46,109 bases of DNA from Actinomycetes bacterium (GTDB lineage Bacteria; Actinomycetota; Coriobacteriia; Anaerosomatales; Anaerosomataceae): positions 1 to 46,109 of the forward strand of contig JAJFTE010000117.1 in assembly GCA_021373175.1 (NCBI GenBank), written 5' to 3'. The translations under genes were made by a program, and so were the position numbers. How positions within the stretch are numbered: the first letter of the stretch is position 1; each line of letters starts with the position of its first letter. Below, in pieces: positions 37,612 through 46,109 of the stretch. Under the pieces are notes generated by a model. It worked only from the letters and a program-made list of their open reading frames with translations, searched no databases and had not been told where the DNA came from.

Positions 37612-38268
37612 CTACCGGTTGCCCACTGCGCCAACGGAGACACGGCACTTGCACGCCAACGACTTGATGTCGCACGGCATGCGGATCTGGCTGATCGTCA
37701 TGCCCTCCGGCTTGCGGATCTTGATGATCGATGTGAGCAGGAGCACGCCGGTGATCCCGGCCGCTGCGAGCAGGTCGAGAGAGATCTGGACCCACCCTGG
37801 TGAGCACGCTACCAGACCGACCGTGACCTGGAGTGCAGGATCGAGCCGCTTAAGATCGGTGAGGTGCCCGACCTCCAGAGCGCCCACCACCAGACCCGCA
37901 TCCTCCGGCAGCTCGGAGAACAGGCCGACCGGCTTCACACCGTAGCGCTCGGATGGGAAGACGACCTGGAGCGCCTCGAGTGTCCGTGCCGTACCCACCA
38001 TCACGATCGGATACTCATCGCTCACGCTGAGAAACTCCGTGAACTCGCGGAACAAGACCAGCGGGTCGTACCCCGCGCCCGGACGACCGATGTCGCCCAC
38101 GAACGAGACATCCCGGCGGACCGTCTCTTCCTTGATGCCCAGCTCGTCGGCCAACTGCCGCGACGTGATCCGATCCGGAGCGCCCACCCGCAGGAGTTCG
38201 CCCAGGTAGCAGTGGTAAAGCGAGAGCCTGTAGAGCGTTGCATCGGGAGCGGTACGGAGCTGTGCCAC
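37612..38268 (-). CDS. Divergent Rex-like redox-sensing regulator
   Basis: A 218-residue winged-helix regulator of the Rex type. The N-terminus is clearly Rex: ATLYRLSLYHCYLGELL, ITSRQLADELGIKEETVRRDVSFVGDIGRPGAGYD (in outline, ending at residue 68). The Rossmann part is altered: VMVGTARTLEAL near residue 90 replaces the usual GxGxxG, and the FD after it is FS (118). Where classical Rex ends in a domain-swapped helix, this ends IRMPCDIKSLACKC, with Cys199, Cys206 and Cys208. NADH binding is therefore doubtful and metal or thiol sensing is possible. It lies between menaquinone-linked genes and the cytochrome locus. Confidence 0.82.
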   Translation of the reverse strand: MAQLRTAPDATLYRLSLYHCYLGELLRVGAPDRITSRQLADELGIKEETVRRDVSFVGDIGRPGAGYDPLVLFREFTEFLSVSDEYPIVMVGTARTLEALQVVFPSERYGVKPVGLFSELPEDAGLVVGALEVGHLTDLKRLDPALQVTVGLVACSPGWVQISLDLLAAAGITGVLLLTSIIKIRKPEGMTISQIRMPCDIKSLACKCRVSVGAVGNR

Positions 38269-38586: not shown

Positions 38587-38688
38587 GTCGGGTCTGCGCT
38601 ACGAACCCGCCCGATGGCAAGCCACATCGCACCGCCGGCGGTCATGCCCGCCACGGAAGTTGTTGATCATGATCACGATCGAGGTCAT
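38583..38688 (-). pseudogene. Frame-broken small ORF coupled at both ends
   Basis: An ATG at 38688 overlaps the upstream lipoprotein stop (ATGA), and a TGA at 38583 overlaps the next lipoprotein ATG (ATGA). The distance is 106 bases, one more than a multiple of three, so no single frame joins them. As given, the first frame stops after 29 codons at 38599. Removing one G from GGCGGGC (about 38644-38650) would give a 34-residue product beginning MTSIVIMINNFRGG and ending AMWLAIGRVRSADPT, a short hydrophobic peptide that could be a membrane helper of cytochrome assembly. Gene-like coupling at both ends makes it unlikely to be chance. Confidence 0.5.
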
Positions 38689-39200
38689 GGCGTCGTCACT
38701 TCGCTCGGGGTTGTGGTTTGCGATGTGCCCGTGGTGTCGAGCGATCGTACGTCGCTCACCAGCCAGCGCTCATCGCGCAGTACCAGCTGATAGCGAAGGC
38801 GGTATGTCACGCCGCTCTCGGTTCGAACGGTCTCGCTCGTGTCGTTCGAGACATGCTTGTAGTCCCACGTCTCGGTCGTGTCGGCGGTCGCGCTCGCGTC
38901 GCCGGAGAACGACACCGAATCGAACGTGATGTCGCGCAGGGTCGCGTGAAGCGTCAATCCCGACTCGCCGAGCGCCGCCATCTGAGAGTATTCGGTGTAG
39001 GCCTGGTCCCGGGTCGCGACAGTGCCGAGCAGGTTCATGTCGTGCGCCGCGAAGGCACGAACGAGCTGCGTGTTGTAGTCGCGAACAGCAGTTGTGACGC
39101 GCTCTATTTCACGCGAGTCCGAACAGCCCGACCCCACGAGGGCGAGTGCAATGCACACAGCCGCCAGCAGGCGACGCGCTCTACTGGAAGTAGACAGCAT
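38685..39200 (-). CDS. Lipoprotein, NTF2-like fold possible
   Basis: A 171-residue exported lipoprotein. Signal RRLLAAVCIALALVGSGC with a lipobox ending in Cys at about residue 26, then a domain of roughly 120 residues (REIERVTTAVRDYNTQLVRAFAAHDMNLL ... RYQLVLRDERWLVSDVRSLD, in outline). The helix-then-strands order and the closing strand 'W LVSDV' resemble SnoaL/NTF2-type domains. A Thr-rich tail follows. ATG at 39200 overlaps ccsA by 20 bases. It is probably carried with the cytochrome assembly genes as a surface or periplasm-side helper; the role is unknown. Confidence 0.78.
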   Translation of the reverse strand: MLSTSSRARRLLAAVCIALALVGSGCSDSREIERVTTAVRDYNTQLVRAFAAHDMNLLGTVATRDQAYTEYSQMAALGESGLTLHATLRDITFDSVSFSGDASATADTTETWDYKHVSNDTSETVRTESGVTYRLRYQLVLRDERWLVSDVRSLDTTGTSQTTTPSEVTTP

Positions 39201-40005
39201 GGATCGAATCCGTGAGGATCGAAGTGCCGAAGAGCGACCAGAAGGCCAACACAACGCAGACGATCAAGAGCATCGCGGCGGGTTTGCCCTTAAGTCGATA
39301 GAAGCGCCGGGCATGGAGGTACAACCCGAACACGAGCCAGGTCACGAGCGACCACGTCTCGACGGGATCCCAGCCCCAGAACCTGCCCCACGAGTAGTAC
39401 GCCCACACCGAGCCGGTCAACATTCCAACGCCCCAGAACGCGAAGGCCAGACCGCCGAAGCGGTACGCGATCGCGTCGAGTTCAGCCGGGTCTGACGGCA
39501 GGCGCCCTATGCGCCGCGGCGAGAGCAGCAACAGCGCCGAGGAGGACAGGCACGCCGCAGCGGCCGAGAAGGCGATGGAATAGAAGCACACGTGCAGGAC
39601 GAGCCACGTCCCGCTGAACGTCGGTGGAAGCGATCTGACCTCGGGCCCCGTGTAGAGGCCGATCGCCATGAGCATCAGCACCACCGGGTACAGCACGACA
39701 TCCAGCCCCCGACCGCGCATGCTCCTGATGCGAGTGGAGGCCAGCGCCAGGATCGCCGTGGCGAGTGCGTAGGAGGAGAGGTTCTCGTACTTGGTGATGA
39801 ACGGGCCGTGACCGACCGCCGCCCATCGCACCGCAATCGCTGAGATGTGAACGAGCAGTCCGGCGGCTGCCAGCCACGGCGCCAGTCGCTTGAGCATCGT
39901 GCGGTCCAGAAACGCGCCGAGCAACGCCACGGCAGATGCCACGGCGTAGAAGATGATCGCGATCAGGTGCAGCCGTGGATCGAGGCTAAGGAGCGACGCT
40001 GTCAT
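39181..40005 (-). CDS. ccsA: Cytochrome c biogenesis protein CcsA (heme delivery)
   Basis: A 274-residue membrane protein with about eight helices. The heme-handling WWD motif is WGRFWGWDPVETWSLVTW near residue 210. Histidines flank it, in ITKYENLSSYA-side and LVLHVCFYS-side helices, as in the CcsA family. Together with ResB/Ccs1 it forms the system II synthase that attaches heme to CxxCH motifs outside the membrane. The ATG at 40005 overlaps resB by 20 bases. Confidence 0.94.
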   Translation of the reverse strand: MTASLLSLDPRLHLIAIIFYAVASAVALLGAFLDRTMLKRLAPWLAAAGLLVHISAIAVRWAAVGHGPFITKYENLSSYALATAILALASTRIRSMRGRGLDVVLYPVVLMLMAIGLYTGPEVRSLPPTFSGTWLVLHVCFYSIAFSAAAACLSSSALLLLSPRRIGRLPSDPAELDAIAYRFGGLAFAFWGVGMLTGSVWAYYSWGRFWGWDPVETWSLVTWLVFGLYLHARRFYRLKGKPAAMLLIVCVVLAFWSLFGTSILTDSIHAVYFQ

Positions 40006-41023
40006 CCTCGGCCCCCCTAACGCGAACGGTTGCGGCACGTGCTGGCTTCATCGGCGCAGCGTACAACATCATCGCACCGACGCCCACGATGAGGAACGAC
40101 GCGAACAGCGGCCACACGGACGGCTGGCGGGAAATGATGTACGCGGCCCACGTATGTGTGCTGTCGAGGCGGACCGACCAGTCTCCAACGGCCTTCGTCG
40201 TCCCGACACCGAGCGACTCCACTGCGCTCTCCTGCCCGCCATGCGCGATCTTGACTGAAAGGACCGTCGCCTCACTCGTAGTCGAAACCACTTCCGAGCG
40301 CGTACGAAGCACCACATCGGTTCCGATCGTCACGTCAAGATACGTCGGTGAGCCGACCCCGGGCTGAGATAGGTCCACCCGCTGTTTCTGCACTGATCCG
40401 TCGGGGGAGGTCAGCGTGAGGAAGTATGCAGGCCCAAAGCGCTGGTCCTGGAAGTAGCGCACTCCGTGAATCGTCTTGGAGCCATTGACGGCCAGCGCGA
40501 GCGATCGTGCAGGATTGCCGAGCGAGAGCTCGCTCGACAGCTGCTTGAGCGTTCCGTCGGCCCACCATGATGGAGACACATGCAGCAGCGTCAATGGCTC
40601 CGGCAACGCGAACGCATCCGCCAGCGGTCCGCGCACGAGTGTGATGGGCGCACTGCCCGCGGGAAGCGTCTGACCTTCGAAGATGGCGTAGATCCCCTGA
40701 CTCTCGCCGAGCAACGCGACGGCAGAGAAGACCAGTGCACACACGAGGCCGACGTGCAGGACAGTACCACCACGAACCCTCGGCCGACCCCGCTGGCGCG
40801 AAACGCGCACATCGCGCGCGATCATGCCCAGGGTGGCAGTCGCAAGCGACAGAAGACAGACCGCGGCGCACGCGATGAAGTACCACGAGTAGAGGACGCG
40901 CTCGACACCCACCACCAGGGCCAGGAGGATGATCGCGACGAACGCGGCAGTCTCCGAGACAATGGTCGCCGGCCGGATGAGCAACCGCTCAACCTGCTTC
41001 ACGCGCTTGCGCACCGTCACCAT
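39986..41023 (-). CDS. resB: Cytochrome c biogenesis protein ResB/Ccs1
   Basis: A 345-residue protein. Three N-terminal helices (IVSETAAFVAIILLALVVGVERVLYSWYFIACAAVCLLSL in outline, and GGTVLHVGLVCALVFSAVALLG) precede a large external domain, and a last helix (PLFASFLIVGVGAMMLYAAP) is at about residue 320. ResB escorts heme with CcsA. It is on the short side for the family. ATG at 41023; only a weak ribosome site. It lies 17 bases after the 19-heme cytochrome gene, so matured product and machinery are cotranscribed. Confidence 0.88.
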   Translation of the reverse strand: MVTVRKRVKQVERLLIRPATIVSETAAFVAIILLALVVGVERVLYSWYFIACAAVCLLSLATATLGMIARDVRVSRQRGRPRVRGGTVLHVGLVCALVFSAVALLGESQGIYAIFEGQTLPAGSAPITLVRGPLADAFALPEPLTLLHVSPSWWADGTLKQLSSELSLGNPARSLALAVNGSKTIHGVRYFQDQRFGPAYFLTLTSPDGSVQKQRVDLSQPGVGSPTYLDVTIGTDVVLRTRSEVVSTTSEATVLSVKIAHGGQESAVESLGVGTTKAVGDWSVRLDSTHTWAAYIISRQPSVWPLFASFLIVGVGAMMLYAAPMKPARAATVRVRGAEDDSVAP

Positions 41024-41040
41024 CCGTTTGCTTCTCGGGC

Positions 41041-44000
41041 CTACCAGTTCGTTCCGCCGGTGGTGTTCGTGTTGTGGCTCGCGGCGCATGGCGTACCGCC
41101 CAGCACTGAACAGTTGTTCCTAGCGATCGAAGTAGAGTTCCAGGTGTACTGACTCACGTACGTGTCCGTCGAAACCCCGAGATACGAGTACCGCGCAGGC
41201 ATGGTGCTGTTGCCATCGCCTATGAGTCGGCTCAACTTGCCGCCATGCGGCACGATGATGTGACAGCGATAGCACGCTGCGGATGAGTGGTTTCCGGCAC
41301 CGGCCGAGTGCGCTGTTTGGTTCTGGAAGCCGTTGTGGCATTTGTCGCACAGGATGCCGGTTTGTGTTCCCGCGGCCAGTCCGTTCACCGTGTAGGCCGC
41401 GTCATCGCCGTTGCCAAGAATGCCGTCGACTCCCGGGTAGATGGGCCAGTAGCCCTTGAGGACATGCGGAATCGAAGACCCGTGCGGCCCCATCGCAGCA
41501 GGAGTGGCCAGCGAGTCTCCGTGACAATCGGAACACGTCATCGTCTGGGTGCCGACGTTCTGCCAGGCCGCGTCCATCCACGAGGGGTCCAGCGCTTTGG
41601 TGGAGCCGAGCGCGCCCATTACCGGGTGGAACGAACGGTTGGCAGTGTTGAACTCGAGCGCGACATCGGTCCACGCGTTGACGCCCGACCCACCCCAGCT
41701 CGTGAGCGCCGAGTTCGCGCCGATCGTGTGGCACTTGAGGCAGACCTGATACTCATAGGTTGCCGTCTCAACCCACGAATAGGCGCCAGCCGTCGGCGTG
41801 GTCCACTCGGTGCCGGGAAGCGTGACGCTGAGGGCCTGCACGCCCGCAAGGGCGGGGCCCACCCTGTTCCCGTTCGTAGTTCCGACGCTATGTGTGCCCT
41901 TGCCTGCGTCATGCGCATCGTGACAGTCCGTGCACTCGATGTGCTTGTTCGCACTCTGGCCGATATAGGCCAGCGTCTCATCCAGGCGTGAGGCTTTATG
42001 AATGCCCGCGTAGCTGGCAACCTTGTGCCCGTACGGAAGCTGCGTCTGCGCGAAGATCGCAACGGAAGTCGCCGACATCGATGCAACGCCGTACTGGTCC
42101 TTCATGAACGACGCTGTCCACGTGGCGCCCTGGCTGTCGTCCGCCGTGCTGTGACACTTGTAACAGAACTGCTCCTCGTATGGGTTTGTCAGCGTCCCGC
42201 CCAGACGCGCGAGGATGCGCGCCTCGGCGCTCGTGTGGACGCCAAAGTCCGTCAGCGTGCCGCTCACGCCTGACTGCCACGCCTTCGTCAGCGTGTCGTT
42301 GTGGCACTTCACGCAGTTCCCTTTGAAAGTGGAACCAGAGAATGCGGATGCCGCCGTATAGTTGTGTGCCGAGGCGGCGAAAGCAGCGGGCCCGAGAACG
42401 ACCGTGTTGGTCGTTCCAGTACTCGCCTGATCGGCGTTCTGCTTCATGAGTGAGGTCGTGTGACACGACACGCAGACGCCGGGGCTCCCTGCAGTGCCGG
42501 GGGCGATGAAGTCGGTGTTCGTAGCATTGACGCTCGACGCCGAGATGCTGCTGCGCAGGTTGGCGCCCTTGTTCGCGTTGAACTGGTCATGATCCACGTG
42601 ACACGACACGCAGTAGACGTCCGTTGTCGAGGTCGGGTACGACGAGGTCGTGGCAGGAGCATAATCGCCGTCACTCGTGGCAGAGCCCATCACATGATGG
42701 TATGAGCCGAGACGCGCGGCTCCGCCCGTGACGCTTCCGATGTTGTCTTCCATCGGCTGGTATTCAGAATGGCAGCCGTAGCATGCGGTCTTCCCGCTCG
42801 AGACTCCCATCGTGGGAGCGTGAACGTTGGCGGCTCCAGTGCCTGCGTAGCTCTTGCCATGGCAGTCGTAGCAGCTCTTGGTCCCCGCTTGCGCGTGCGA
42901 GTCGACCCCACCGAGCGCCTTGAGGCGCAGGTAGTTCAGGTTCCGAGTGGTCTCCGTGCTCGGCCGGGTCTGGCCCGCAAGCAGCGTCCCGTCTCGGCAA
43001 AGGCCCTGAACGAGCATCGAGGGCGTCGCGTTCGTATACGCGCCGACCGATGAGTCCCAGACCTTCGCGGCTTCGTCGGATGTCGAGTGGCACGTGAAGC
43101 AGAACTCGCGGACGCGGCCCGCAGCGGTCACCACGACACCGGCGCTCACCGTTGCCTCCAGGCTCTGGCCGAGGGTATCGGCAAGCATCATCTTGTTGTT
43201 GCGGGTGGAGCCGTGGGGGTTATGGCAGTCGTAGCACGGCAGCGGCGAGTTGGGGGGCAGCGCAGCGCCCGTCGTCTTGATGCGATGACCGGACGTGACA
43301 TTCGCGTCATCGGGCGTGGTCACCGCGTACCGCTTGATGTCGACCGCACCGGATGCGACCCACGACCCACCGCCGTGGCACAGGAAGCAGGCGGCTGCAT
43401 AGTCGCCGCGTGTGCGATCGGCTGTGACCGTAGAGGTAGCGGGCGCTCCGAACGTGGCCGGCAGGCTGTCGTACCGGCTCGGCCCACGATGCGCCAGGTG
43501 GCAGTAGCGGCAGTCGCCGGTGACCCGCGGCGTCGTCTGAGCCGGCAGCATGGAGTCCGCCGTCACACCCGGAGGTATCGCGGCATGTCTGTTCTTCGTG
43601 GTGTCGCTGTAGACCGTCGTCCCGGGAAAGGTGCCCGTGACCGGGTAGCCCGATGCGTCACGGGCCGGACCCGCCAACGAAGGATACGGCGTCGCGGTGG
43701 TCGACTTGTACCAGTCCTGGCCGTCGTTGTGACACGCGAGGCACCAGGTGTTGTTCGCGCCGGTCACCGTGTACGTGCCTGACGAGGTGACGACGGAGCG
43801 CACAGGCAAACGCCGATCGGTGACGTAATCGGAGTGCGGTGAGTGACAGCTCGAACAGCGGTTGCTCAGATCGAACGCCGAGCCCGCCGTCTCGGTAGCA
43901 TCCTCGACCCTGTGGCCGCTCTGAAGGGCGAACGAGTTGTTCGCTCCTGTCTTGACGTTGGTCGAGGCACCCGCGCCGTCGTGGCACGAGTAGCACGCGG

Positions 44001-44190
44001 CGATCTCGCCCGACGTGCCCTCGGTGGTGACGACCGAGAAGAGGAAGTCTTCGCCGGGGGACCGGTGAATCGTGTGGCAGTTCGCGCACAGGGTCGTTGC
44101 GGCGCTGTATCCGCCGTGAGGCAGCGCAGCGAAGGCCGGGGCCGGCACGAGGAAAAACACGAATAGGGCGACAACAACCGCCGCCCACAT
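41041..44190 (-). CDS. Secreted multiheme c-type cytochrome with 19 CxxCH motifs
   Basis: A 1049-residue exported protein. The signal peptide is about residues 1-21 (VVVALFVFFLVPAPAFA). Nineteen CxxCH heme motifs run from CANCH (about residue 35) through CYSCH, CSSCH, CLACH, CRYCH, CFLCH, CYDCH, CFTCH, CYDCH, CYGCH, CVSCH, CVSCH, CVKCH, CYKCH, CTDCH, CLKCH, CSDCH, CDKCH, to CYRCH (about 985). No transmembrane helix follows. After the last heme come about 60 residues with CSVLGGTPCAASH, a motif like CxxCH with Ser in place of the second Cys. Domains of the doubled-CXXCH / cytochrome c3-like type are likely. Its place next to ccsA-resB suggests electron transfer across the envelope to an acceptor outside; partners and acceptor are unknown. 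ATG start at 44190. Confidence 0.93.
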   Translation of the reverse strand: MWAAVVVALFVFFLVPAPAFAALPHGGYSAATTLCANCHTIHRSPGEDFLFSVVTTEGTSGEIAACYSCHDGAGASTNVKTGANNSFALQSGHRVEDATETAGSAFDLSNRCSSCHSPHSDYVTDRRLPVRSVVTSSGTYTVTGANNTWCLACHNDGQDWYKSTTATPYPSLAGPARDASGYPVTGTFPGTTVYSDTTKNRHAAIPPGVTADSMLPAQTTPRVTGDCRYCHLAHRGPSRYDSLPATFGAPATSTVTADRTRGDYAAACFLCHGGGSWVASGAVDIKRYAVTTPDDANVTSGHRIKTTGAALPPNSPLPCYDCHNPHGSTRNNKMMLADTLGQSLEATVSAGVVVTAAGRVREFCFTCHSTSDEAAKVWDSSVGAYTNATPSMLVQGLCRDGTLLAGQTRPSTETTRNLNYLRLKALGGVDSHAQAGTKSCYDCHGKSYAGTGAANVHAPTMGVSSGKTACYGCHSEYQPMEDNIGSVTGGAARLGSYHHVMGSATSDGDYAPATTSSYPTSTTDVYCVSCHVDHDQFNANKGANLRSSISASSVNATNTDFIAPGTAGSPGVCVSCHTTSLMKQNADQASTGTTNTVVLGPAAFAASAHNYTAASAFSGSTFKGNCVKCHNDTLTKAWQSGVSGTLTDFGVHTSAEARILARLGGTLTNPYEEQFCYKCHSTADDSQGATWTASFMKDQYGVASMSATSVAIFAQTQLPYGHKVASYAGIHKASRLDETLAYIGQSANKHIECTDCHDAHDAGKGTHSVGTTNGNRVGPALAGVQALSVTLPGTEWTTPTAGAYSWVETATYEYQVCLKCHTIGANSALTSWGGSGVNAWTDVALEFNTANRSFHPVMGALGSTKALDPSWMDAAWQNVGTQTMTCSDCHGDSLATPAAMGPHGSSIPHVLKGYWPIYPGVDGILGNGDDAAYTVNGLAAGTQTGILCDKCHNGFQNQTAHSAGAGNHSSAACYRCHIIVPHGGKLSRLIGDGNSTMPARYSYLGVSTDTYVSQYTWNSTSIARNNCSVLGGTPCAASHNTNTTGGTNW

Positions 44191-44436
44191 GCACGCGGAG
44201 TCGAGGCTCCCGTGTTCGTGATGTCCAATTCGCCTGTTCGCTCAGTCACGTCCTTCGCGGTGACACTCCGGAGAGGCTGCGTTGGCGGCATGTCGCATCG
44301 TGGTTTCCGCACGTGCACGACACGTGTACGTTGACCCCCCGGCGTGCCCTGTATGCCTTCTCCATTCTCTCAGACGCGGCGGCGAACCGCCACCTGCTGG
44401 AGCGCTATTTCCGCACTTCATAGTGGTTAACTGCGT
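44191..44436 (-). promoter_or_regulatory. 246-base leader upstream of the 19-heme cytochrome
   Basis: No gene is seen here. On the minus strand it holds, in order from the NHL gene end, a stem with a TTCG loop (44378-44391, arms GGCGG/CCGCC), which could end the NHL transcript, then two CACGTG palindromes 11 bases apart (44310-44315 and 44321-44326), then a smaller hairpin with arms GTCAC/GTGAC (about 44230-44260). A structured 5' leader or a one-turn-spaced operator pair would fit. A c-di-GMP-I riboswitch was considered and not called. Confidence 0.4.
44310..44326. repeat. Two CACGTG palindromes one helical turn apart
   Basis: CACGTG at 44310-44315 and 44321-44326, separated by CACGA, so centres are 11 bp apart. 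The two also pair as a hairpin in RNA. It lies about 120 bases upstream of the cytochrome start, where a regulator site would be expected. Confidence 0.45.
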
Positions 44437-45429
44437 TCAGTCCGATACTCGCATATTGAATACGACGACCCTGCCGGCCTGGGCGTCCGTCACATATACA
44501 CGGCCGGTCGACGCCACCCATGTGGTACCTCTCGGACTACCGAGCGAGCCCTCAGAATCCGTGCTGCCGTCGATCACGTCGACAGGGGCTCCCGCCGGGC
44601 TGAGCAGCTTGACAACGCGCTGGAACGTGTCCACCACCAGGAGATCGCCCGCGATACCGACCCCCACTCCTCGCGGAAGCGCGAACGAGCCGGGGAACGT
44701 GCCTTTCGTGGTGCCCGTGGCGATGTCGAACATCACCATGCGCCCCGCGTTCGAGTCGGTTGCGTAGAGGGTTCCATCAAGCATCACGAGGCCGCCAGCG
44801 TATGCGGCCGTGTTGACAGAACCCTTCACGACGGTGCGGAGATACGCGCCGTCGGAGCCGTACGCCTTGATCGTGAGGTCTCCGCCGTCCGCGACGTAGA
44901 TGGTCTCCCCGTCCACCGCGACGGCGGTCGGCGATTTCACACCGTTCGCCCCGCTCTCGCCGATAACGGTCGCACCCGGCGATTTCGCTTTCGGATCCGC
45001 GTCGAGGATGAGGATTCGTGATCCTGAGTTGTCCACCACCACGAGCCGGTCGGTTCCAAGGGTAGCGATGTCCGAGGGATACGCGGTAGGCGCGCCTGCG
45101 CGGACCGGAAGCACGATAGAACCCTCGTCTTGGCCGCGCAGTCCGAAGACCCTGATGCGGCCCGCGTCCGACTCGGACACGTAGATGTTGCCGGCGCGCG
45201 AGACGATCCCCAGCGGGTTCAGCAGGTTCGGTTCGCCTTCGGCCGGAAACATGCCGGCATAACTGACGGTGGCGGTGCTCTCCTTCGAGAAGCCCACCAG
45301 TTCGACGCCGCCCCGGGGATAGTACAGGAGAACCGCCACCACAATCGCCGCCGCGATGATGATGAGCGCGATGATTCCCAGCAGCGTTCTTGGCCTCACG
45401 CCGCGAGACATGCCCTTGAAGGTAGCCAT
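44437..45429 (-). CDS. Membrane-anchored NHL-type beta-propeller protein
   Basis: A 330-residue protein. One N-terminal helix (RTLLGIIALIIIAAAIVVAVLLYY, about residues 15-38) anchors a propeller domain with repeated blades of the NHL type: NPLGIVSRAGNIYVSESDAGRIRVFG, YPSDIATLGTDRLVVVDNSGSRILILD, SPTAVAVDGETIYVADGG, LPRGVGVGIAGDLLVVDTFQRVVKLL, and SPRGTTWVASTGRVYVTDAQAGRVVVF (each blade given in outline). Five to six blades fit. Such propellers often sit beside multiheme cytochromes and may act as docking modules. ATG at 45429. The gene lies between two cytochrome genes. Confidence 0.9.
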   Translation of the reverse strand: MATFKGMSRGVRPRTLLGIIALIIIAAAIVVAVLLYYPRGGVELVGFSKESTATVSYAGMFPAEGEPNLLNPLGIVSRAGNIYVSESDAGRIRVFGLRGQDEGSIVLPVRAGAPTAYPSDIATLGTDRLVVVDNSGSRILILDADPKAKSPGATVIGESGANGVKSPTAVAVDGETIYVADGGDLTIKAYGSDGAYLRTVVKGSVNTAAYAGGLVMLDGTLYATDSNAGRMVMFDIATGTTKGTFPGSFALPRGVGVGIAGDLLVVDTFQRVVKLLSPAGAPVDVIDGSTDSEGSLGSPRGTTWVASTGRVYVTDAQAGRVVVFNMRVSD

Positions 45430-45546
45430 ATCAGTCCGATCGATGCTTCGGCGTTCATCCCGACACGCGATGGCACGCGAACGTGGCCTCACAACCACCC
45501 TAGCACCATCGGACGTCTGTGACTCGCGGCTGAGGCACCCGACTGC

Positions 45547-46109
45547 CTAGAGCGCCGACCGCACGTGGCACTTCGCGCAATATGTGGGCTCGTGGCACTG
45601 GAAGCAGGGCTCAGCGCCCTTCTTCTGCACGACGACGAAGTGCTGCGGTAGCCACGACTTGTTCGGGTTTCCGTCGGGGTGGTGGCACGCGTTGCAGAAC
45701 TCGGTCGCGGAGGCGTTCTTCGTGCCTGGCGTGGCGTGACAGTTCGCGCAGACCGTCGGCTCCTTCTTGCCAAGCGCACCGTGGCTCTTGGTGAAATCGG
45801 CGGGGTGCGGCATCTCGAGGCCGTGGCAGTCGTTGCAGAACGTGTTCAGGTCGTGACAGGTACTGCAGTAGTTGACAGCGTCCACCGAGACAAGCGCCAG
45901 CGCTTCGGCCGTGCTCTCGCCCTTTCCCTCGGCGGCACCGGAGGCCTCCTCGGCAGACGTCGCAGCCTCGAGCACCGGCTTGCCGGTCGCCCTGTCGATC
46001 CTCGCGAGGGCGAGTTTGGCGTGCCCCTTGGGATAGAAGCCGGTCACGCCATGGTTCGCCGGCTTGAGCTTGAAGTCGGCGGGGTGGCAGGTGGAGCACG
46101 TGCCGGACG
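45547..46109 (-). CDS. Multiheme cytochrome c, partial (runs off the right edge)
   Basis: The C-terminal 187 residues of a cytochrome. Seven CxxCH motifs are visible: CSTCH (at the edge, about 46090), CSTCH, CNDCH, CANCH, CNACH, CFQCH and CAKCH, ending with CHVRSAL. Between the first and second is a long linker with an Ala/Glu-rich stretch (ATSAEEASGAAEGKGES). The frame stays open to base 46109, so the N-terminus with any signal or anchor is outside the window. A GTG at 46047 is internal and not the true start, since a heme motif precedes it. Heme spacing and the CFQCHEPTYCAKCH ending recall cytochrome c3-like/NrfH-related families, without a firm match. Confidence 0.92.
   Translation of the reverse strand, partial: SGTCSTCHPADFKLKPANHGVTGFYPKGHAKLALARIDRATGKPVLEAATSAEEASGAAEGKGESTAEALALVSVDAVNYCSTCHDLNTFCNDCHGLEMPHPADFTKSHGALGKKEPTVCANCHATPGTKNASATEFCNACHHPDGNPNKSWLPQHFVVVQKKGAEPCFQCHEPTYCAKCHVRSAL

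Follow-up and report, generated by a model that had tools for sequence, protein, structure and literature searches.

Gene content of the locus

We analysed the complete contig C13 (JAJFTE010000117.1; 46,109 bases, hereafter the window) of an actinobacterium of the family Anaerosomataceae (order Anaerosomatales, class Coriobacteriia; assembly GCA_021373175.1), whose genome of 2.15 Mb is 99% complete. One end of the window carries a gene for an exported c-type cytochrome with 19 CxxCH heme-attachment motifs, which is the main subject of this work. Downstream of it follow genes for ResB, CcsA, an NTF2-like lipoprotein, a Rex-like regulator and a B12 radical-SAM protein. Upstream lie an NHL beta-propeller and a second multiheme cytochrome. 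The minus strand encodes all genes of interest, with short gaps between them (Table 1).

An earlier note on this DNA had described the exported 19-heme cytochrome, the anchored NHL propeller and the second multiheme cytochrome. Motif counts, Pfam and an AlphaFold model of the propeller all confirm this gene set. The richness in heme motifs also stands, but the count of over 26 CxxCH motifs does not: there are exactly 26, 19 in the large cytochrome and 7 in the second one, with none in the propeller and no further open reading frame (ORF) of the window having two or more. The ccsA-resB pair is directly downstream, as the note had it, but at 39181-41089, just beyond the interval from 41041 to 46109 in which it had been placed. 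Both cytochromes match Pfam domains of the Paired_CXXCH, C7 and MtrC-like types.

Conservation of the 19-heme cytochrome

We aligned the window protein with 19 full-length relatives (39-70% identity). All 19 CxxCH positions are identical in the 19 orthologs, so the motif count is not due to chance. A further 20 histidines outside the motifs are identical in 19 of 19. Since 19 hemes need 19 second ligands and 20 invariant extra histidines are present, every heme can be bis-histidine coordinated. Catalytic multiheme proteins keep one heme open, while electron conduits show bis-histidine coordination throughout. Judged from the alignment, the invariant histidine pattern fits an all-bis-histidine conduit rather than an enzyme, and the proposal of long-range electron transfer made in the earlier note is backed by these two sets of conserved residues.

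Successive CxxCH motifs are at most 77 residues apart. Of the 19 orthologs, 18 retain an unpaired cysteine close to the C-terminus (C1027). One relative (L054:6094-11454, minus strand) has about 830 additional N-terminal residues with no Pfam match.

A cytochrome cassette with its own heme-attachment genes

Based on their domains (Table 1), the adjacent ResB and CcsA are predicted to form a System II (CcsBA) cytochrome c synthase. We then compared the 18 canonical loci with enough flanking sequence. ResB and CcsA immediately follow the 19-heme gene in 17 of them, the NTF2-like lipoprotein accompanies it in all 18, and the propeller precedes it in just 12. Three loci (L056, L057 and L063) have the propeller without the 19-heme gene, and there the ResB, CcsA and NTF2-like genes of the cassette are absent too. 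At two others (L049 and L050) the cassette occurs by itself, with relA and recJ as neighbours. This joint presence and absence, together with the solo occurrence, means that cytochrome and synthase behave as one heritable cassette. The natural unit is thus cytochrome-ResB-CcsA-NTF2, with the propeller as an optional neighbour.

When the window ResB was used as a query against 61 genomes, 26 of the 28 matches adjoined a relative of the 19-heme gene, as determined by comparing coordinates. The source genome holds five matches to the heme-lyase family PF01578, so the ResB-CcsA of the window is not the general pair. We strongly infer that the synthase is dedicated to the 19-heme protein. Dedicated heme attachment had been proposed in the earlier note, and the loci support it: the pair is downstream where the cytochrome is present, with one exception, and gone where the cytochrome is gone. 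The same comparison does not sustain the view that propeller, second cytochrome and 19-heme protein make one coherent unit, which is not obligate: these modules are separable among related loci.

The lipoprotein is a candidate third component of the cassette, in maturation or in wall tethering. In relatives, a second ResB-CcsA pair comes with a related TcaA-like lipoprotein, as if this were a third part of the maturation system.

Giant relatives with up to 75 heme motifs

The same order as that of the window's host also contains giant relatives of the 19-heme protein. Four are encoded by single ORFs with 75 motifs in 5,097 aa (L071:4542-19835, minus strand), 75 motifs in 4,104 aa (L073:3091-15405, minus strand, with masked bases within), 61 motifs in 4,695 aa (L072:4624-18711, minus strand) and 48 motifs in 3,144 aa (L074:3726-13160, plus strand). 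Another (L076) has 33 motifs in 2,651 aa. The largest consist of four to five consecutive stretches that match the 19-heme protein, and their motif spacing is the same (median 49-51 residues). The four largest run without a long heme-free break, the maximum gap being 94-120 residues. Several giants have relatives of ResB and CcsA downstream.

Immunoglobulin-like (Ig-like) domains are found at the start of L071 and L072, and L076 has a weak fn3 match. Such domains are typical of surface proteins and point to the cell surface for the giants. The earlier note had held that its reading would fall if close homologs were all soluble enzymes. This check turned out in favour of the note: we found no sign of a five-coordinate active site, and the giant paralogs carry the Ig-like fusions.

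The OmcZ filament rises 58 Å per eight hemes. At OmcZ-like packing, 19 hemes would span about 14 nm and 75 hemes about 54 nm. We put forward tentatively, as possible but less likely than not, a family of covalent wires in single-membrane bacteria, each a single chain built from the 19-heme protein as its unit. Tandem duplication would have extended this unit to as many as 75 hemes, long enough at such packing to cross a Gram-positive wall as one molecule. Each chain would be matured by the neighbouring ResB-CcsA and tethered or chaperoned by the NTF2-like lipoprotein as a new component. A count of 75 is near the largest heme number in the literature compared, which is 86 for a protein of anaerobic methanotrophic archaea (ANME) in the available text of PMC9012536.

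Neighbouring genes and the wider locus

Table 1. Genes of the cytochrome locus in the window, with position, strand and basis of assignment.
NapC-like multiheme cytochrome, C-terminal part, 7 CxxCH	45547..46107	(-)	63.5% identity over 192 aa to the 11-heme protein in L056
NHL six-bladed beta-propeller, one N-terminal membrane anchor (residues 36-59), no heme motif	44437..45498	(-)	Pfam NHL (E 2.5e-18), AlphaFold, Foldseek
19-heme c-type cytochrome, 1,049 aa, Sec signal peptide MWAAVVVALFVFFLVPAPAFA	41041..44190	(-)	19 CxxCH; ortholog alignment
ResB/CcsB subunit, System II cytochrome c synthase; start probably ATG at 41023; shorter than relatives (reduced loop between transmembrane helices 2 and 3, reduced C-terminal tail)	39986..41089	(-)	Pfam ResB (PF05140), weak, E 5e-4; alignment with relatives
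CcsA (ResC) heme-handling subunit, System II cytochrome c synthase	39181..40038	(-)	Pfam Cytochrom_C_asm (PF01578) E 2.6e-30; NCBIfam CcsB of System II (TIGR03144) E 3e-37, under its cut-off
NTF2-like (YvbJ/TcaA type) lipoprotein, lipobox LVGSGC; start probably ATG at 39200 (alignment)	38685..39254	(-)	Pfam NTF2_YvbJ E 8e-7; alignment
Rex-like regulator	37612..38268	(-)	Pfam Put_DNA-bind_N; NCBIfam Rex below cut-off; 14-sequence alignment

The AlphaFold model of the middle ORF (predicted local distance difference test, pLDDT, 83) shows one transmembrane helix and six blades, and its best PDB matches in Foldseek are NHL propellers (E 1e-16). The model thus identifies this protein as an NHL six-bladed beta-propeller.

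The second cytochrome runs off the contig end. Its full-length homologs have 362-404 aa, 10-11 CxxCH motifs plus a CX3CH motif, and an N-terminal membrane helix. In the full 11-heme homolog this helix is followed by the NapC-like motif FCAEVCHKV (CX3CH), which makes the protein a plausible quinol-oxidising input. Pfam NapC found no match in the L056 homolog. Helix and heme motif are present in the homologs of L056 and L057 and at the end of another contig of the source genome, C51; the joining stretch is missing in the window. By this comparison, the 7-heme ORF of the window is most probably the end of a NapC-like anchored cytochrome of roughly 11 hemes, a probable quinol-oxidising input.

In relatives the wider locus recurs in the order Wzy, Rex, TPR, NHL, 14-heme, 11-heme, (TcaA-like, ResB2, CcsA2), NHL, 19-heme, ResB, CcsA, NTF2, Rex-like, radical-SAM. 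From the first NHL gene to the radical-SAM gene, leaving out the bracketed genes, this order is repeated across many genera of the family. The genes at the end of C51 are Wzy, Rex2, NHL2, a 14-heme remnant and the first ~45 codons of an 11-heme gene. The 14-heme gene there (L119:7250-7901) retains its two ends only; its central part is missing and its reading frame is shifted.

Over its last 141 bases (45969-46109) the window matches the end of contig C112 (L118) without a mismatch. A paralogous multiheme gene, which has at least 17 motifs, begins there. The assembly therefore broke in a repeat. Either C13 or C112 could join C51, and synteny favours C13. Contig C34, considered as a continuation because of a PF09699 match, was rejected as no multiheme gene was found there, which leaves C51 and C112 as the candidates.

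In the Rex-like regulator the glycine motif for NAD binding is degenerate, the C-terminal cysteines (MPCD[IL]KSLAC[KR]C) are invariant, and there is no match to Pfam CoA_binding. The protein may sense redox state by way of a thiol, a metal or a heme rather than by NADH. The cysteines of the motifs ACSPGW and MPCD..ACKC are invariant in 14 of 14 relatives.

Host envelope and distribution

The search for Omp85 gave no match in the source genome; the same search was positive in 7 of 14 control genomes. Because Omp85 is lacking and isolates of the Anaerosomatales have a Gram-positive wall, the source cell probably has a single membrane, in agreement with the earlier note. No outer-membrane beta-barrel partner of the MtrCAB or porin-cytochrome type is found among the annotated neighbours either.

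We searched 396 genomes drawn over the phylum with a profile of the 19-heme family (E < 1e-40). The family is present in 11 of them, four in the family of the window's host and seven in other deep actinobacterial families; there were no matches in other families of the same class. HGW-Actinobacteria-1 and EMTCatB1 are among the relatives at genus and family level, and EMTCatB1 belongs to the class Coriobacteriia. One distant relative (29% identity) occurs in a Firmicutes genome (L070), in a similar neighbourhood.

EMTCatB1 dominates a biocathode, and electron uptake through its multiheme cytochromes has been proposed; on the cathode, five multiheme cytochromes are within the top 10% of transcripts. 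We located the 19-heme ortholog relative to these with a gene count that started at the formate dehydrogenase landmark and used a simple home-made gene finder, which yields approximate gene numbers. The ortholog lies ~139 minus-strand genes before 1c0406. The idea that it is the formate-dehydrogenase-linked cytochrome 1c0406 itself was rejected: the ortholog is flanked by recJ and relA, and the count places 1c0406 at a six-heme gene beside the dehydrogenase. EMTCatB1 also has a 33-heme gene (1,370 aa; G006:C1:1037919-1042031, L127) adjoining a 14-heme gene. The cathode-abundant 1c0363 is probably one of these two, at 1.038-1.044 Mb.

Comparison with known systems

Khomyakova et al. (PMC9686372) report that the obligate Fe(III) reducer Parvivirga hydrogeniphila Es71-Z0120, also of the Anaerosomatales, has a cluster (MCL4079323-32) that combines homologs of MtrA and OmcH with a quinol-oxidising multiheme cytochrome, biogenesis genes and a Rex-type regulator. 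According to the authors, such a cluster is absent from the non-reducing relative Anaerosoma tenue. The resemblance to our locus is one of composition, not of sequence: MtrA/OmcH-like multihemes, a quinol-oxidising multiheme (in our locus a probable one), cytochrome c biogenesis and a Rex-type regulator occur in both. The cluster is published as an annotation list, and the text available from this source does not describe the cassette, the propeller or the lipoprotein. Parvivirga shows pili-like appendages with ferrihydrite only.

Wall-crossing multiheme systems are also known in other Gram-positive cells. The ImdcA-PdcA-CwcA-OcwA chain of Thermincola (PMC7911101) resembles the chain proposed here in having a quinol-oxidising membrane multiheme together with wall and surface cytochromes, but its proteins have 6-10 hemes; it lacks both a 19-heme protein and a cassette that brings its own synthase. 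Carboxydothermus ferrireducens reduces Fe(III) oxide with secreted multihemes (OmhA/SmhA-C; PMC7829351) that have fewer hemes; propeller, NHL and ResB are unmentioned there. Large multihemes beside a propeller, as in the window, are described for SEEP-SRB1-type clusters (26- and 16-heme cytochromes with a peptidyl-prolyl isomerase and a beta-propeller, as cited in the available part of PMC12246660) and for the NHL-cytochrome clusters of Desulfovibrio ferrophilus (PMC9769857), whose hosts, unlike ours, are Gram-negative and have an outer membrane.

The giant multihemes of ANME with up to 86 hemes carry surface-layer domains and have been suggested to conduct electrons across a proteinaceous surface layer (PMC9012536). 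As far as that account goes, they differ from the present family in being archaeal and in having surface-layer or pectin-lyase fusions rather than tandem 19-heme units with Ig-like domains. The Geobacter nanowires OmcS, OmcE and OmcZ are bis-histidine heme chains like the one proposed here, but they are non-covalent polymers with 4-8 hemes per subunit. No clear homology was found to a nanowire subunit of solved structure; the OmcE profile match is weak (E 0.05 over 61 positions).

The suggestion in the earlier note that the route across the wall may be undescribed was thus too strong, given the Parvivirga cluster and the Thermincola and Carboxydothermus systems. The general theme of a multiheme electron conduit is already known. 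The definition of the family, the self-contained cassette and the tandem-expanded giants seem not to have been described in detail before.

Possible roles of the 19-heme protein

Taken with a fair measure of confidence, our preferred reading is that the 19-heme protein is exported as a chain of hemes that all have bis-histidine coordination, and that along this chain electrons cross the wall of a single-membrane actinobacterium and leave the cell. In this reading the protein is produced from a self-contained cassette within a larger respiratory locus. An extracellular role is likely. ResB-CcsA would export heme and attach it to all 19 sites of the cytochrome. The NapC-like anchored 11-heme cytochrome would draw electrons from membrane quinol, and the 14-heme OmcH-like protein and the 19-heme protein, with hemes spaced continuously along the chain, would pass them outward to a final extracellular acceptor such as ferric iron. 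The membrane-anchored propellers may serve as docking scaffolds. The similarly composed cluster of Parvivirga, as its authors list it, counts in favour of such a conduit.

Several observations weigh against this reading. One isolate of the order yielded no detectable quinones. In the source genome the upstream 14-heme partner appears to be deleted, be it a true deletion or an assembly error. The link to Fe(III) comes from two isolates, by cluster composition and not by sequence. For the 19-heme protein itself, no transmembrane, SLH or LPXTG anchor was recognised, and the AlphaFold model from a five-sequence input has a pLDDT of 25 and is unusable for heme-heme distances. Finally, the EMTCatB1 ortholog is probably none of the five cathode-abundant multihemes.

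This last point bears also on the unlikely alternative that the protein stores or takes in electrons at the wall side or the surface, for buffering or for uptake from minerals, cathodes or partner cells, rather than acting as an outward wire. The same anatomy would suit both directions, and EMTCatB1, for which uptake has been proposed, carries an ortholog. Its absence from the highlighted cathode-expressed cytochromes weighs mildly against a central role in cathode uptake, and the cluster reported in Parvivirga belongs to an obligate Fe(III) reducer. The separability of the modules raises another, rather doubtful, explanation: cassette, propeller and NapC-like cytochrome may be independent modules of a loose redox island without a single pathway. 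The propeller counts speak for it, as do genomes with the cassette alone (G006 and G020) and genomes in which the propeller and the 14- and 11-heme genes remain without it (G001, G014 and G007). Against it stand the single strand with short gaps throughout and the full gene order, which many genera of this family share.

It is highly improbable that the protein reduces a soluble substrate (of the nitrite, sulfite or tetrathionate type) as a multiheme enzyme with a dedicated heme lyase, in the manner of NrfA, MccA or SirA. NrfI is an example of such a lyase. Catalytic multihemes that contain odd heme sites typically have a lyase of their own (PMC6976685, PMC12285233), and the best PDB profile matches of the 19-heme family are to NrfA, although weak (E 0.001 over about 200 positions). 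However, all 19 sites are plain CxxCH, and the 20 invariant histidines give every heme a candidate second ligand. No protein of solved structure, enzymes included, was matched by a single-sequence search, and tandem multiplication to 75 hemes is hard to square with a single active site.

How electrons pass through the thick wall of single-membrane bacteria is an open question with few worked examples. The 19-heme protein and its own heme-attachment enzymes on one cassette provide a defined test object, which should ease heterologous production. The NTF2-like lipoprotein is a candidate for an unrecognised part of cytochrome maturation. Natural chains of 19 to 75 hemes allow us to ask whether chain length matches wall thickness.

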